DNA of 64,000 bases from Mesobacillus jeotgali. Lineage in GTDB: Bacteria; Bacillota; Bacilli; Bacillales; Cytobacillaceae. Position 1 is the first letter of the stretch. Every line of letters begins with the position of its first letter. The position numbers and the translations under genes were made by a program. Shown here in pieces: positions 24,873-28,413 of this stretch. Below the pieces are notes generated by a model. It searched no databases. It was not told where the DNA came from and saw nothing but the letters and a program-made list of their open reading frames with translations. The stretch spans positions 2,230,501-2,294,500 of the forward strand of contig NZ_CP134494.1 of NCBI RefSeq assembly GCF_031759225.1, in the 5' to 3' direction.

Positions 24873-24911
24873 TAATTTAGCTCAAGCCAGGACTTACTGC
24901 ATCTTATTCTG

Positions 24912-24962
24912 TCAGGAAGTCCGCTTCTTTTCATTGACATTCACCAAAAGGCCGCGTTTGAT
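24912..24962 (-). pseudogene. 3' fragment of the gene split by the transposon
   Basis: Seventeen codons ending in TGA (IKRGLLVNVNEKKRTS). They continue in frame from the 5' fragment at 28246-28413 once the transposon and one CCAAT copy are removed. See the 5' fragment entry. Confidence 0.8.
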
Positions 24963-24967
24963 CCAAT
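24963..24967. repeat. target-site duplication, left copy (CCAAT)
   Basis: CCAAT directly before the transposon end TGTTAATGACG; identical to 28246-28250. Confidence 0.9.
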
Positions 24968-24973
24968 TGTTAA

Positions 24974-25038
24974 TGACGTTCTACAATGTCCAGAACTTGA
25001 CGATGTTAATTGTCCTAAAACTGACGGAACTACTGTCC
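24974..25038 (+). repeat. left-end transposase-binding repeats (3 units)
   Basis: Three direct repeats at 24974-24991 (TGACGTTCTACAATGTCC), 24998-25015 (TGACGATGTTAATTGTCC) and 25022-25038 (TGACGGAACTACTGTCC), each start 24 bases apart. Confidence 0.85.
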
Positions 25039-25079
25039 AAAATTGAAAGGGAAGCAGTTCACATGCTTCCCAAAAGTTT

Positions 25080-25316
25080 TTACAAATCAACTTGATAGGT
25101 CTCATTTTTCTTAAGATAGAATCTAACGTCATTTCGGCCGGTAAGAATATACCAATCTCTGCCCAGCTCCAGGCGGCAGGAAAGGGTCCGACCATTTCCT
25201 AGATGTAAATCAAACCATTCACCACATCGCATCTTATAGCCGGAGTTCTCTCCCCAAAACACAACCCAACAATCCAATTCTTCATTATAATTCATCTCTT
25301 TCCAGCGGGTTTTCAT
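25080..25316 (-). CDS. DUF5348-like small transposon protein
   Basis: A 78-residue mostly beta protein with many aromatic residues (ELDCWVVFWGENSGYKMRCGEWFDLHLG, then DWYILTGRNDVRFYLKKNETYQVDL). It recalls the DUF5348 family found beside AAA ATPase genes in such elements; the assignment is from memory of the pattern. Its ATG overlaps the ATPase stop (ATGA), so translation is coupled. It lies next to the left end. It may assist target choice or regulate transposition, but this is not shown. Confidence 0.7.
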   Translation of the reverse strand: MKTRWKEMNYNEELDCWVVFWGENSGYKMRCGEWFDLHLGNGRTLSCRLELGRDWYILTGRNDVRFYLKKNETYQVDL

Positions 25317-26113
25317 GAAAGTTCCCCCTGGATGACTTGCTTGATCATATGATCATCAATGATCCTTCGGCCATTTTGTGAACCATAGAGAAGACTATGT
25401 GTACAGAGCTTATTAATGAGCCTTGCGGCACCACCAGAGAAGCGATGAATCTCGTCAAGTGCTCCATCAGAGAATATTGGTTGATCAACACCGGCATATC
25501 GAAGGTGCCTAGAAACATATTCTTCAACCTGGGCACGGTCGAGATGTCCTAGCTGAAACTGGATATCGATTCTTTGGCGTATGGCTGCGTATGATTGGAG
25601 TCGAAGCCGATCCCATAATTCACTTTGACCGACCAGGATAAGCGCCATCGGGCTTTGCGAATCCATTTTGAAGTTCAGTAGGAAACGAACCTCTTCAAGC
25701 ATTTCCCGGTCCAGAAGATGAGCTTCATCCACTACCACTACAGGTTGTAGCCCTCGTATGCCTTTCATTAATTCAATCTCACGATGAAGCTGCCGTTTTG
25801 CATCTCCTCGATAAAACTTCGCTTCAGAGCCTAACTGTTCCAAAAGACCTTTGTAAAAATGACGAGGCGTTAACTTAGAGTCGGACAGGTAAAGGATATG
25901 GAATTTCCCTTTATCCAATTTGTCCACAAACTTACGGATGGTTGTGGTCTTTCCAGTACCACTATCCCCACTCAGAACGGCAAAAAGCTGTCTTTCAGCT
26001 GTGTACTTCAGCCTACCAAGGATTTCTTGCACCATGGAGGAATCATACAATTGATCAGTCGGAAGATCTCTGGCGAAAGGAGTGTTGTCCATTTCATAGA
26101 ATGCTTCAAACAC
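25313..26113 (-). CDS. AAA+ ATPase, ExeA/TnsC-like transposition regulator
   Basis: A 266-residue AAA+ protein. It has Walker A SGDSGTGKTT (about residues 49-58), Walker B VVVVDEAH, sensor LILVGQSEL and an Arg-rich AIRQRID region. This is the ExeA/TnsC/MuB type, which binds target DNA and activates the transposase. GTG 26113 (MFEAFYEMDNTPF) is preferred: AGGAGG lies 9 bases upstream and the start overlaps the transposase stop by 8 bases. A longer frame to 26140 overlaps the transposase further. Confidence 0.9.
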   Translation of the reverse strand: MFEAFYEMDNTPFARDLPTDQLYDSSMVQEILGRLKYTAERQLFAVLSGDSGTGKTTTIRKFVDKLDKGKFHILYLSDSKLTPRHFYKGLLEQLGSEAKFYRGDAKRQLHREIELMKGIRGLQPVVVVDEAHLLDREMLEEVRFLLNFKMDSQSPMALILVGQSELWDRLRLQSYAAIRQRIDIQFQLGHLDRAQVEEYVSRHLRYAGVDQPIFSDGALDEIHRFSGGAARLINKLCTHSLLYGSQNGRRIIDDHMIKQVIQGELS

Positions 26114-27461
26114 GGGAATCTTCCTCCTTCCAAACGGCACGGAAGGTCACGGCAGGTTTCTGTTCGGTTAGGCGTTCCTGGTTCTTTCGTTCAGCTGCCT
26201 TTAATAGTCTTGAAGATTCTACACCCTGCACCTGCAGGTGCTCAGGTAATGCAGGACGCTTCCCAGCTCTTTCCCCAATGACAAGTTTCTTGGCTTTCCA
26301 AGGAGTATGATCCTCGAACTCAATGGTAAGCTCCTCGATATTCGCAGGATCATAAACCACCTCAACCTGTCGTCCAATGAAAGCCAGGCCGACCTCATAT
26401 TTTTGATCCATGAAACTTATGCATCCTGATTTATCGACTTTCCTTGTTTCACAATGGAGGAATGCATTACTCAAGGTATCAGGATCGATGAACCTAATCG
26501 CTTTTTTATCTGAACGAAATGCCGTTTCCGGGCTGATTTTCTCCCCAAGTGCAGAATGAGGCTTATTCTGATAACACTCTGTGAGCCACACTTGGAAAAG
26601 CTCATTCAGACGATCAAGTGTATTGGGCTTTTCGATGACAGCCTCACTAATGAATGAATCTATGATTCTATTGAAGCGTTCAATTTTCCCTTTTGATTCA
26701 GCTGAGTACGGCCGTGTGTAAGTAAGGCGGGTGCCTATTTTTGAGCAGGTACGCGACATCCATTTGGTTCGATATTGCTTTCCATTATCAAAATAAACAG
26801 CCTCTGGAACACCATACTTCTGGATAGCCTGGCGGAAGGCATCCTCGATGATCCTTGAATCCAAGGTAGGATAGAAAGCTGCGTGAAGCACAAACCTGGT
26901 GGCGTCATCGATAAAGGCGACAAGATACACTTGTTTCTTTATTCCATTCGGACCAATCGGCAAGTAGGGACCATACTTGATATCTGACTGCCAGAGTTGG
27001 TTGCGATGTCGCTTCTGAAATCTTCTGGCAGCTACTCCTGTCTGGGAATAGAGTCGCATATGCCGGGTGCTGTAACCTTTTTCAGCGAGCTTTTCCTGGA
27101 GCGTTGATCTTTTGATCTGCCCTGGTTCAGCCAACCCTTCCCATTCGAGTATCTGTATGATTTGAGCCACGCTCCGGCTCGGCACTTCCTTACGCAGAAG
27201 GATTGCCTGTTCCAATAAATGAGGAGGGATAGCCTCAGACTTTCGAGCACCTTTTCTTCCTTGTGGCTTTAGTCCCCCAAACCCATCTTCCTGAAATTGA
27301 GCCAAATATCGCCTGATGGTTCTTTCTGAAAGACCGCTGGCCTTCGCTATCTGGTCTCTTAATTCCTTTACTTTCCCAGCGTCAAGCCCCTCTGCTAATA
27401 AAGGGGATATTAGCTGAAAACGATGCACTGCCAATTCTTCTGATTTCTTATGATCACTCAT
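26106..27461 (-). CDS. DDE transposase, Mu/TnsB/IS481-type integrase core
   Basis: A 451-residue transposase. N-terminal helix-turn-helix segments (ASGLSERTIRRYLAQFQEDG, about 40-60, and a second near 110-130) bind the end repeats. The RNase-H-like catalytic core (about 160-310) has D in LWQSDIKYG, D in VYFDNGKQYR and E 35 residues later in SKGKIERFNR. A C-terminal beta-barrel (SFMDQKYEVGLAFIGRQVEVVYDP) is as in MuA/TnsB. GAGGAGAG precedes the ATG. The frame is intact. Confidence 0.93.
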   Translation of the reverse strand: MSDHKKSEELAVHRFQLISPLLAEGLDAGKVKELRDQIAKASGLSERTIRRYLAQFQEDGFGGLKPQGRKGARKSEAIPPHLLEQAILLRKEVPSRSVAQIIQILEWEGLAEPGQIKRSTLQEKLAEKGYSTRHMRLYSQTGVAARRFQKRHRNQLWQSDIKYGPYLPIGPNGIKKQVYLVAFIDDATRFVLHAAFYPTLDSRIIEDAFRQAIQKYGVPEAVYFDNGKQYRTKWMSRTCSKIGTRLTYTRPYSAESKGKIERFNRIIDSFISEAVIEKPNTLDRLNELFQVWLTECYQNKPHSALGEKISPETAFRSDKKAIRFIDPDTLSNAFLHCETRKVDKSGCISFMDQKYEVGLAFIGRQVEVVYDPANIEELTIEFEDHTPWKAKKLVIGERAGKRPALPEHLQVQGVESSRLLKAAERKNQERLTEQKPAVTFRAVWKEEDSRV

Positions 27462-27505
27462 GATACACTCTCCTCTCTGTGTCTATCACGAGTGTAAATC
27501 AGGTG

Positions 27506-28036
27506 CTATTGGACAATGAATGCGGAACGGGTATGTATCCATAAATTAATATTTACGATGGGCCGGACAATTCTTGTCAGCCATCCATTGGCATCTCCTG
27601 CCAAGCGTCCTATCCTTTGAAGTGCGGTCCCTGAACATTTGGACGTGACATCCTGGGGGATATTTCCCTGGTTGGTCCTGATCATGATGGAATTCAAACA
27701 GCCAATCCAATAATCCACAAATTGATGAAACCAGCCGTGCCATCTCGAAAGAGTGGAATCATCGGCAGCAACAATATGGGCGGACGGGTTCGTAAGAACG
27801 TCTTCGATACATTCAGCCTCATAGCGTTTATAAGGAATCAATAAATCTGGAAGTTCATGATGGATGGTCTGACAATTGGTGCACTGCAATCTTCGGATGT
27901 TATATGTTTTACTCTGACCTGTATGATCCTTGGCTTTTCGATTCTTTGTACCTCTAACCAACATGTCTTTACCACAGCATGGGGAAGGAATCCTCCCCGC
28001 ACCCCTAACTAAAAACTCCAGTATGAGTGTTTTCAA
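27506..28036 (-). CDS. zinc-ribbon transposon protein (DUF6431-like)
   Basis: A 176-residue protein whose N-terminal part has a zinc-ribbon: PCCGKDM and, about 30 residues on, CTNCQTIHHELPD. It is followed by a helical part with LIPYKRYEAECIEDVL and a STLSRWHGWF helix-turn-helix-like segment. It resembles the DUF6431 family that accompanies transposases like this one. The start is TTG 28036 right after an in-frame stop, with no clear Shine-Dalgarno. It is the first gene of the transposon and its role is unknown. Confidence 0.7.
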   Translation of the reverse strand: MKTLILEFLVRGAGRIPSPCCGKDMLVRGTKNRKAKDHTGQSKTYNIRRLQCTNCQTIHHELPDLLIPYKRYEAECIEDVLTNPSAHIVAADDSTLSRWHGWFHQFVDYWIGCLNSIMIRTNQGNIPQDVTSKCSGTALQRIGRLAGDANGWLTRIVRPIVNINLWIHTRSAFIVQ

Positions 28037-28076
28037 TCAGCTGATAATCTGATACAATAACCATATACTTTTTGGT

Positions 28077-28129
28077 GGGACGTCTCCTGTATAACTGTTG
28101 GCGCAGTTATACATTTATGGGGGACGTCT
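28077..28129. promoter_or_regulatory. hairpin and GACGTC repeats inside the transposon right end
   Basis: Perfect inverted repeat GTATAACTG/CAGTTATAC (28089-28112), flanked on each side by GGGACGTCT (28077-28085 and 28121-28129). It lies between the right end repeats and the first transposon gene, so it could be an autoregulatory site or a barrier to read-in transcription. Confidence 0.45.
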
Positions 28130-28174
28130 TTTCCTTTCTCCAGAATAAATGTCGAAATGTTTCGAATTATATAC

Positions 28175-28239
28175 GGACATTATAATCGACTAATTCTGGA
28201 CAGGCAATACCGTCAACTTTCGGATAATTAATGGCGTCA
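28175..28239 (-). repeat. right-end transposase-binding repeats (3 units)
   Basis: On the minus strand: TGACGCCATTAATTATCC (28222-28239), TGACGGTATTGCCTGTCC (28198-28215) and the weaker AGTCGATTATAATGTCC (28175-28191), 24 and 23-24 bases apart. Inverted relative to the left-end set. Confidence 0.85.
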
Positions 28240-28245
28240 AAAACA

Positions 28246-28250
28246 CCAAT
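28246..28250. repeat. target-site duplication, right copy (CCAAT)
   Basis: CCAAT immediately after the transposon end ...AAAAACA; identical to 24963-24967. Confidence 0.9.
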
Positions 28251-28413
28251 AATCAAAATTATCCACTGGAAAAACACTCCGATTCTCCGCGTTATTCATT
28301 TTGATGATCACGCTGCTGTTGGAAACCTCCAAAACCCTCAACCTGTCTGAATTATACATATTCGGCAAAAAGCCATGTTGGATTTCAAACTCCATATTAT
28401 TTTGATATTCCAT
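28246..28413 (-). pseudogene. 5' fragment of a small gene interrupted by the transposon
   Basis: Fifty-six codons from ATG 28413 (MEYQNNMEFEIQHGFLPNMY) down to DNFDYW at the insertion point, with a CTGGAGG Shine-Dalgarno 8 bases upstream. Joining to 24912-24962 after removing the element and one CCAAT gives an uninterrupted 72-residue protein. The protein is small and mixed-charge and no family was recognised. The precise frame restoration supports both a real gene and a recent insertion. Confidence 0.8.

Follow-up and report, generated by a model that had tools for sequence, protein, structure and literature searches.

A DDE/AAA transposon of Mesobacillus jeotgali with a predicted antisense RNA and a predicted leader frameshift

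The 64,000-nucleotide stretch of Mesobacillus jeotgali DNA analysed here (the window) contains an element of 3278 bp (24968-28245, termini TGTTAATGACG and TGTTTTTGACG) which appears to be a recently active DDE/AAA transposon of insertion-sequence size. On the basis of sequence comparison, we consider it likely that the element is held down by an antisense RNA together with a frameshift in the leader that precedes its DUF6431 gene. IS10 is the best-known case of antisense control of transposition, and the frameshifts familiar in transposons serve to produce transposase. Here the two devices appear to meet in a DDE/AAA operon at its first gene, which encodes an accessory protein. If true, an antisense RNA combined with a built-in frame shift would be an unusual form of self-restraint for a jumping element.

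Ends, copies and target sites

The first-pass annotation placed exact boundaries between two CCAAT repeats, and three repeats spaced by roughly 24 bp inward from each end. Both proposals hold. The M. jeotgali genome carries eight copies, all 3278 bp long and 100% identical, with the same termini and each with its own direct repeat. The end repeats are units resembling TGACG-N7/8-TGTCC (8-10 of 10 matches each), which start at positions 7, 31 and 55 from both ends, a spacing of 24 bp. There are three at each end, compared to at most two units in all in 5000 shuffles of both 90-bp ends.

The annotation also assumed a fixed duplication of 5 bp, and expected other copies to show the same ends with differing 5-bp repeats. 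The ends are as expected, but the length is not constant. The duplications at the eight copies are 7, 6, 6, 5, 6, 7, 6 and 7 bp. In 72 copies they are 6 bp in 35, 7 bp in 16, 5 bp in six, 4 bp in two and absent in 13, the ends perhaps being mis-picked in some of the last 15. This count covers distinct, untruncated copies with a transposase identity of at least 55% and both ends passing the end score; repeated copies, copies cut by contig ends, and those with end scores under 9 or 10 were left out. The duplication made by the element is 5-7 bp, with a mode of 6.

Among 20 further genomes from the genus, 19 have contiguous flanks and no element at the insertion site of the window. Four of the eight host-genome sites lie within ORFs (551, 130, 72 and 144 aa), one lies within a 60-aa ORF only, and three have no spanning ORF of at least 60 aa. 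A fixed attachment site was considered and rejected, because the sites differ in ORF context, being scattered across ORFs and non-ORF DNA. Insertion seems to be nearly random in sequence, with a weak palindromic preference (nT..An). Target choice, left open in the first-pass annotation, is thereby narrowed to scattered insertion with this preference and a 5-7 bp stagger. Joined ends with a spacer of 0-12 bp, as in circle or tandem intermediates, were found in none of 193 genomes of the family, using an exact pattern which diverged relatives would escape. The host genome held no end-only or non-autonomous derivatives apart from short chance matches.

Table 1. Features of the element, in window coordinates
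Feature	Position	Strand	Basis
Target-site duplication CCAAT, left	24963..24967		direct repeat; empty site in congeneric genomes
Left end: TG terminus and three TGACG-N7/8-TGTCC repeats, starts 24974, 24998, 25022	24968..25038	+	repeat scan with shuffles
Terminator-like hairpin, T-tail in both directions, past last gene	25049..25071		consensus scan only (4 sites, 3.2 expected by chance)
DUF5348 gene, 78 aa, apparently dispensable	25080..25316	-	PF17295, E 2.4e-16
AAA ATPase, 275 aa, TniB/ExeA/MuB-like; GDSGTGKTT, VVVDEAH	25313..26140	-	Pfam/NCBIfam profiles, solved relative
DDE transposase, 451 aa, rve and Mu-transpos_C	26106..27461	-	profiles, solved relative, alignment of relatives
DUF6431 zinc-ribbon gene, own frame; first start past stop is TTG 28036	27506..28036	-	PF20020, E 3.8e-32
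Leader ORF MVIVSDYQLIENTHTGVFS (then stop), predicted DUF6431 N-terminus, other frame	28005..28064	-	comparison with relatives, including one-frame homologues
Predicted frameshift site GTT TTT AGT (leader frame)	28008..28016	-	T-run at joint
Predicted antisense promoter TTTTCA-17-TACAAT, TG of extended -10, inside leader codons	28030..28058	+	consensus scan (8 sites, 5.7 by chance); TGnTAnnnT in 62/62 elements
Predicted antisense RNA forming a hairpin with a UUGGCG loop; length about 75 nt, from inferred ends	28065..28140	+	covariation, strand test, fold, model R1 match 28065-28143
U-tract TTTTCCTTT after antisense hairpin	28129..28137	+	TTTCCTTT in 44 of the 46 elements with tract form listed (of 51)
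Right end: TG terminus and three repeats, starts 28239, 28215, 28191 (read on - strand)	28175..28245	-	repeat scan with shuffles
Predicted operon promoter TTGCCT-17-TATAAT, within right-end repeats	28179..28207	-	scan; exact hexamers and spacing in 43/62 elements
Target-site duplication CCAAT, right	28246..28250		direct repeat

Genes and family

The four genes all run in one direction, reading from the right end. Profile matches confirm the coding set first proposed for them (zinc-ribbon protein, DDE transposase, ExeA/TnsC-like ATPase, DUF5348-like protein). No match to TnsA, TniQ or a resolvase is among those listed for the four proteins; this and the eight copies bear out the earlier description of a complete mobile DDE and AAA-ATPase transposon lacking all three. 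Lacking them, the element is not a member of Tn7. Residues D160, D225 and E261 of the transposase, which we take to be catalytic, are invariant in 8 aligned relatives.

The label 'TnsB/TnsC-type' given to the element stands in part. The transposase passes the cut-off for Mu-transpos_C (PF09299, 30.5 bits against 21.7), and the ATPase that for TniB (PF05621, 25.6 bits against 22.4). However, the best curated NCBIfam model for the transposase is IS481 (179.4 bits, E 1.1e-52, under the cut-off of 224), and its best solved relative is the transposase of IS5376, an IS21-family element; the NCBIfam IS21 model gives 63.2 bits, under the cut-off of 160. The best solved relative of the ATPase is 'ATP-dependent target DNA activator B', presumably MuB, and IstB is not among the best 25 of 27 Pfam families for this protein.

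DUF5348 had been counted within the needed core, which is not supported. It appears to be dispensable, since a match to it (E 1e-3) is missing in 22 short elements (2994-3066 bp), all with target-site duplications of 5-7 bp. The DUF6431 gene precedes the transposase and ATPase core in nearly all relatives examined, and the order zinc ribbon, DDE, ATPase is kept in relatives at about 31-37% transposase identity (partly judged by eye). A sample of 398 genomes of the phylum contains 88 with DUF6431 above cut-off, and a set of 14 control genomes contains none. DUF6431 shows no likeness to TniQ by sequence or profile: PF06527 is not among the matches listed for the four proteins or for the read-through DUF6431, a profile comparison with one host TniQ gave a probability of 0.2%, and fold comparison gave no confident match.

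This is apparently a widespread and undescribed IS family, although a named ISfinder entry may exist. In the literature searched, DUF6431 appears in a gene table of one paper (PMC12323340), and DUF5348 is mentioned nowhere. Titles and abstract openings of work on TnsC/TnsB/TniQ, IS481, IS21, IS10 antisense RNA, U-turn loops and frameshifting gave no account of the family, and a search for antisense RNA with frameshift control in a Tn7 or IS21 context returned only unrelated work.

The leader and the hairpin

The frameshifted leader and the antisense hairpin, which are the two most unusual features of the element, are absent from the first-pass annotation. In none of the 63 distinct elements surveyed does the leader share the DUF6431 frame: the offset is 1 in 59 and 2 in four, one of which (L146) has a mis-picked ATG, is really offset 1, and is excluded from the counts of 62. 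The survey took loci up to L150 with identity of at least 55%, repeats removed. It skipped 16 loci, of which five lack an ATG, two lack the first Cys pair and nine lack the zinc-ribbon motif. Of the five, L018, L019, L021 and L150 show a leader with GTG instead, and L089 shows none.

A run of 4-6 T lies at the joint between the leader and the DUF6431 frame in 62 of 62 elements. In four relatives (L158, L174, L175 and L176) leader and DUF6431 form a single ORF, and the read-through product aligns residue 1 to residue 1 with L158 (46% identity) and L175 (38%). Conserved coding in different frames on both sides of a slippery site was found, along with fused homologues. Because the leader is conserved in another frame, meets DUF6431 at a T-run, and in a few relatives shares its frame, we predict that it is the true N-terminus of DUF6431, joined by a programmed frameshift. 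The slip would be either -2 or +1 in the window element, and -1 in a few relatives. AlphaFold gives no structural support for the leader folding with the zinc ribbon, since the first two blocks of ten residues in L158 have low pLDDT (34 and 47).

The hairpin spans the part of the 5' leader that precedes the leader ATG. Conservation of the control region extends to elements from several classes within the phylum. Alignments A3/A4, which comprise 51 of the 57 listed hairpin regions (L107, L134, L144, L145, L148 and L149 being left out as diverged), contain 158 cells changed on both sides, whereas shuffles gave 52 +/- 5.7 and slid controls 16-30. One of five pair measures fails against shuffles (further pair types, 29 against a shuffle mean of 32.1). 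Of 29 further DUF6431 loci, the model R1 detects the hairpin at E < 1e-8 in 15, though some of these loci are not independent of the training set. R1 also matches five of the six diverged loci at E <= 1e-6, L149 not being among the matches listed; L146, outside the 57, gave E 0.22, and the one-frame L158 a weak match of 22 bits. At E <= 1, no Rfam family matches the interval 24900-28300.

The promoter and terminator scans returned no more sites than expected by chance, and the argument for these predicted sites is entirely one of conservation. All 62 elements have a leader codon 4 ending in TA and a leader codon 5 ending in CA. In comparison, other such leader codons end in TA in 23 of 261 cases and in CA in 11 of 82, and those of the transposase gene in the window in 21 of 92 and 26 of 84.

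It is possible to read the leader as a separate regulatory peptide, with DUF6431 begun by coupled re-initiation at TTG 28036 and no frameshift. This could operate in 55 of the 63 elements, since these have some ATG, GTG or TTG in the DUF6431 frame upstream of the zinc cysteines; in many, a TTG lies 48-57 nt upstream of the first of these cysteines, and the leader stop in the window lies downstream of its TTG. We nevertheless regard it as unlikely: the remaining eight elements have no such codon between the last in-frame stop and the cysteines, one of them (L042, which represents L042-L045, the four copies of G186) carries a stop codon that separates the TTG from the zinc ribbon, the one-frame relatives join the two parts naturally, and in 17 of 62 elements the leader continues beyond the joint and exceeds 20 residues in all. 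If instead the frame were restored by transcriptional slippage and not by the ribosome, the universal T-run would be explained, but the runs are just 4-6 T, against a slippage-prone length of nine in a large proportion of genomes in the available text of PMC1088944, and this is very unlikely.

The hairpin might also be a device of the mRNA, such as an attenuator or a control of RNase or ribosome sites, given its place within the 5' leader, downstream from the operon promoter, and its ability to fold on both strands (z -7.3 for mRNA, -6.8 for antisense). This seems distinctly improbable when the strands are compared. On the mRNA strand, C.A cells outnumber G.U by 55 to 13 (30 to 6 for 24 representatives). 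In 43 of 51 elements it is the antisense strand that folds better. The T-tract, too, belongs to the antisense side, and the leader codons keep an outward extended -10 unchanged. The covarying hairpin and its U-tract thus fit an antisense RNA, from the + strand of the window, better than they fit the mRNA. Finally, the Mu-transpos_C and TniB matches might mark an ordinary element of Tn7/Tn5053 type from which TniQ and resolvase have been lost, with an unremarkable control region. We give this very little credence, as the reduced gene set extends to the distant relatives described above, making it a family rule and not a loss in a single copy, and the control region is conserved across several classes.

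Proposed mechanism and known systems

Under the preferred reading, of antisense RNA and leader frameshift, the IS481/IS21/TnsB-like transposase would bind to the three repeats found at either end, while target DNA would be picked or prepared by the ATPase in the manner of IstB, MuB or TnsC. The operon would be transcribed from the promoter-like site buried in the right-end repeat array, and the antisense hairpin RNA, about 75 nt long, from a promoter concealed within the operon's first codons. Inhibition would rise with copy number because the antisense RNA pairs with the 5' leader of the transposition mRNA, like RNA-OUT of IS10. Ribosomes would start at the leader ATG (28064) and have to slip at GTTTTT (-2 or +1) to make DUF6431, a zinc-ribbon protein that may serve transposition as a limiting DNA-binding cofactor or as a regulator.

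More tentatively, we hypothesise a widespread undescribed class of ATPase-assisted IS in Bacillota with a two-lock switch: an RNA-OUT-like antisense RNA with its promoter in leader codons, and a frameshift (-2/+1, sometimes -1) to a zinc ribbon that replaces TniQ as the limiting cofactor. The preferred reading, if true, would account for some database copies of DUF6431 that start past the first zinc cysteines, and would offer a tractable system for an AAA transposon working without TniQ, along with a natural series of elements with changed frame offset (-2/+1, -1, fused).

Like Tn7, Tn5053, Tn552 and Mu (TnsB-TnsC, TniA-TniB, MuA-MuB), the element has a transposase with rve and Mu-transpos_C, a TniB/MuB-like ATPase, and TG..CA ends with several repeats; duplications of Tn552 are likewise 6-7 bp. 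It differs in lacking TnsA, TniQ and resolvase, in its size of about 3 kb and in its variable duplication of 5-7 bp. The IS481 family provides the best curated model for the transposase core, under that model's cut-off, and its elements are about 1 kb with one gene. With IS21 (IstA/IstB) it shares the two-protein plan of DDE transposase and AAA ATPase, and IS21 also has repeated binding sites at each end (PMC10122671, in part) and no target selector reported in the available text of PMC10293859. Unlike IS21, it has an ATPase apparently of another Pfam family (no IstB among the best 25 of 27), a transposase under the IS21-model cut-off, an added DUF6431 gene and a predicted antisense and frameshift control region.

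IS10 makes a 69-nt antisense RNA that blocks ribosome binding and exerts control in multicopy (PMC5006887, in part). The likeness to RNA-IN/RNA-OUT lies in a short predicted antisense RNA, a predicted outward promoter close to where the first gene begins, a hairpin and the proposed copy-number-dependent inhibition. The transposons are unrelated, however, and here the predicted antisense promoter lies in codons of the frameshifted leader, with the hairpin upstream of the ATG. Programmed frameshifting occurs in IS1/IS3-type elements. In phage Mu, -2 shifting is known, and adds one residue relative to +1 (PMC5009743, in part). The element resembles these in having a slippery run inside a mobile-element gene, but its predicted shift would yield an accessory zinc-ribbon protein and not a transposase, and the offset varies among its relatives (+1/-2, -1, fused).

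Anatomy and affiliation of the element

Both ends of the element can be read directly in the sequence, and the boundaries proposed in the first-pass annotation (CCAAT with termini at 24968 and 28245) are correct to the base. The three repeats per end that it described, spaced by 24 bp, are also present (3+3): TGACG-N7/8-TGTCC-like units start at positions 7, 31 and 55 of either end, in one register, while 5000 shuffles of the two ends gave at most two such units in total. From the right end leftwards, the four genes encode a DUF6431 zinc ribbon, a DDE transposase, an AAA ATPase and a DUF5348 protein. As that annotation had it, there are no matches to TnsA, TniQ or a resolvase within the element.

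Features of the window copy, in window positions
Feature	Position	Strand	Sequence	Remarks
Left end	from 24968		CCAAT, then TGTTAATGACG	read in sequence
Right end	up to 28245		CGTCAAAAACA, then CCAAT	read in sequence
Operon promoter	28207-28179	-	TTGCCT-17-TATAAT	inside right-end repeats; exact in 43/62 elements
Leader ORF	28064-28005	-	MVIVSDYQLIENTHTGVFS*	conserved, upstream of DUF6431
Predicted antisense promoter	28030-28058	+	TTTTCA-17-TACAAT, TG before it	promoter scan; within leader codons
Flanks of split 72-aa ORF	28237-28413 and 24941-24967

The transposase has rve and Mu-transpos_C domains above cut-off. Among NCBIfam models IS481 ranks first, with a score below cut-off, and its top relative of solved structure is the IS5376 transposase (IS21 family). 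The ATPase scores above cut-off for TniB; its own top relative of solved structure, going by the molecule title, is MuB. The relation to TnsB/TnsC-type elements claimed earlier holds for Mu-transpos_C and TniB, but the affiliation to Tn7 does not, there being no TnsA or TniQ, and IS481 and IS5376 being the closest model and structure. The element may already bear an ISfinder name. The predicted structure of DUF6431 is a zinc ribbon plus helices (a middling model), with no TniQ likeness and no confident fold match.

Of 193 genomes in the same family, 36 (the host among them) contain relatives of the transposase at E <= 1e-20. A scan of named genomes found 145 stretches encoding relatives; the 80 best were retained, ten of these from Tumebacillus avium. 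At approximately 31-37% transposase identity the order zinc ribbon, DDE, ATPase is kept (ORFs judged by eye) and the fourth gene is different or absent; the Pfam DUF6431 model is over cut-off in locus L061 and just below in L028, and L057 has no intact zinc-ribbon ORF. Among 57 copies with a target-site duplication (TSD) of 5-7 bp, DUF5348 is matched (E 1e-3) in none of the 22 elements of 2994-3066 bp and in 33 of the 35 longer ones. Because these short, TSD-flanked elements have no such match, the core consists of three genes, and DUF5348, previously counted in the coding set, falls outside it. L028 and L069 have instead a fourth gene of 60-81 aa, coiled-coil-looking by eye.

Copies and target sites

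The element is mobile and has been active recently. The host genome contains eight copies, all 3278 bp long and 100% identical, each with its own direct repeat and each looking like a simple insertion. Of 20 other genomes searched in the genus, 19 have the window's insertion site unbroken across the junction, and with it the DNA of the 72-aa ORF that this copy splits; the twentieth had no match. The adjoining 1150-aa ORF may encode methionine synthase. Two further genomes are multicopy, one with five copies and one with eight, the latter as four each of two variants, and joined element ends were found in none of the 193 genomes scanned.

A fixed 5-bp TSD, as first proposed, is not borne out; its length ranges over 5-7 bp. 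The eight host copies have TSDs of 7, 6, 6, 5, 6, 7, 6 and 7 bp, and in a set of 72 copies, all distinct, untruncated and with ends that scored well, 6 bp is commonest (35), followed by 7 bp (16), 5 bp (6) and 4 bp (2), with none in 13. With fixed termini, TSD length depends on the register of both flanks rather than on chance extension. Target preference takes the form of a weak palindromic pattern: 6-bp sites have T at position 2 in 21/35 and A at position 5 in 20/35, and 7-bp sites have T2 in 10/16, A3 in 13/16, T5 in 11/16 and A6 in 13/16. Insertion sites are scattered, four of the eight host copies lying within ORFs of 72-551 aa.

Some full-length loci with intact ends (L012/L056 in genome G067; L053, L054 in G038) have no direct repeat in register, possibly through recombination or adjacent rearrangement; L056 has CATGG on both sides, one base off each end. 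It is worth adding that the host genome has four TniQ matches, all outside element copies. Joined across copy L200 (host C1:207455-210732), the flanks form a 551-aa ORF, and this ORF overlaps in part with a TniQ match (PF06527, 48 bits); a second match lies just upstream in a 582-aa ORF, and L200 is possibly a jumping element within a resident Tn7-like transposon. The two other matches lie 2-8 kb from another host copy.

A probable frameshift in the first gene

In 63 distinct elements with an identifiable leader (59-100% transposase identity), the leader is never in the DUF6431 frame. The offset is 1 in 60, counting L146 with its ATG corrected, although the distance from ATG to zinc ribbon varies, and 2 in three (L102, L120, L135). 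The leader is conserved as far as GVF, and conservation resumes at VR in the frame of DUF6431; between them there is a run of 4-6 T in 62/62, mostly GTTTTTTGTT or GTTTTTAGTT. Eight of the 63 have no ATG, GTG or TTG from the last stop to the first zinc cysteine; the remaining 55 retain some codon able to start DUF6431, which counts against a frameshift. Short database homologues of DUF6431 (150-154 aa, 24 of 85), those shown aligned beginning past the first zinc cysteines, fit a leader out of frame.

Most tellingly, natural loci with leader and zinc ribbon in one ORF, namely L158 (MVILSEYDLVETPKRVFFVRSGEQNPCPVC...) and L174-L176, argue for frameshifting. The read-through product of the window aligns from residue 1 with L158 (46% over 183 columns) and L175 (38% over 186 columns). 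In this product, as in L158, the Pfam domain begins at residue 27. Of the 30 PF20020 loci, the 25 in which the zinc-ribbon motif was found comprise 14 with offset 1 (one being the host's own), two with offset 2, four in one frame whose N-terminus is of the leader type, and five in frame with an N-terminus of another type. Against this, the N-terminus of the one-frame protein is modelled at low confidence.

Offset 1 could be reached by +1 or -2. Of these we infer -2: tRNA-Phe on TTT/TTC would slip back onto the preceding TTT and stay paired, including in the four GTTTTC cases; the product would have two residues ahead of VR, as does L158 (VFFVR). A +1 shift is a possible alternative for these elements. 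The three offset-2 elements require -1, two of them at T TTT TTC, a classical heptamer. Shifting by -2, which gives one residue more than +1, is documented in phage Mu (extract of PMC5009743). The frame might instead be restored through RNA polymerase slippage, but this is less likely because the runs at the joint are only 4-6 T, as against the nine given as slippage-prone in a large proportion of genomes (extract of PMC1088944).

A predicted antisense hairpin and possible control

The predicted antisense promoter comes from a scan with no overall excess (8 sites against 5.7 +/- 2.5 by chance). Leader codon 4 nevertheless ends TA in 62/62 elements while encoding V, I or L (GTA 45, ATA 13, TTA 4), and codon 5 ends CA in 62/62 while encoding S, T or A. 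For other V/I/L and S/T/A codons of the leaders the figures are 23/261 (TA) and 11/82 (CA), and for those of the window transposase gene 21/92 and 26/84. An outward TGnTAnnnT, made up of the bases that matter most in an extended -10, is found in 62/62 (39/39 representatives at 90% and 21/21 at 80% identity).

Between the operon promoter and the leader ATG there is a hairpin, in which 90.6% of cells pair across 51 aligned elements, with both-side changes at 15 of 18 pairs. Cells changed on both sides number 158, against 52 +/- 5.7 when shuffled and 16-30 when slid; of five measures only further pair types (29 against 32.1) are not above shuffles. The hairpin can fold on both strands, which counts against an antisense reading, but the strands can be distinguished, since a C.A cell in one becomes a G.U pair in the other. 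Read as mRNA, the hairpin has 55 C.A, 13 G.U and 31 other non-Watson-Crick cells (C.A 30 and G.U 6 in 24 representatives). The antisense strand folds better in 43/51 (-28.8 kcal/mol on average, against -23.4; Wilcoxon p 2e-8, uncorrected for relatedness). On it, TTTCCTTT comes directly after the stem in 44 of the 46 elements (of 51) for which the form of the tract was listed. In the UUGG of the commonest loop, TTGGCG (20/51), we see a fit to the YUNR U-turn, a motif that reportedly accelerates antisense pairing (extract of PMC4485353).

Of 29 further DUF6431 loci, 15 are matched at E < 1e-8 by a hairpin model built from the 51 elements, and four more at 0.001-0.0025, these E-values being rough and some loci close to training members; matches elsewhere within the window start at E 0.07. 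In the one-frame L158 the hairpin scores weakly, at 22 bits, which counts against the reading. Weak matches are also seen at distant DUF6431-type loci that are in frame with another N-terminus (L172, L173, L177-L179, L028, L069), just 5' of the start in L172, L173, L178, L179 and L028; L172, L173, L178 and L179 retain the outward TACAAT, and the antisense RNA may therefore predate the frameshift.

By analogy with known relatives, the transposase would act on the end repeats and the ATPase would handle target DNA; in IS21, IstB is required for correct duplications (extract of PMC10122671). Because the operon promoter is located in the end repeats, self-repression is possible. From the sequence we infer a further, dual control, in which the frameshift would limit DUF6431 synthesis and an antisense RNA covering the 5' leader would lower translation as copy number rises. 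This control region was overlooked in the first-pass annotation, and merits a laboratory test of the element. The model for the proposed antisense RNA is the 69-nt RNA-OUT of IS10 (extract of PMC5006887).
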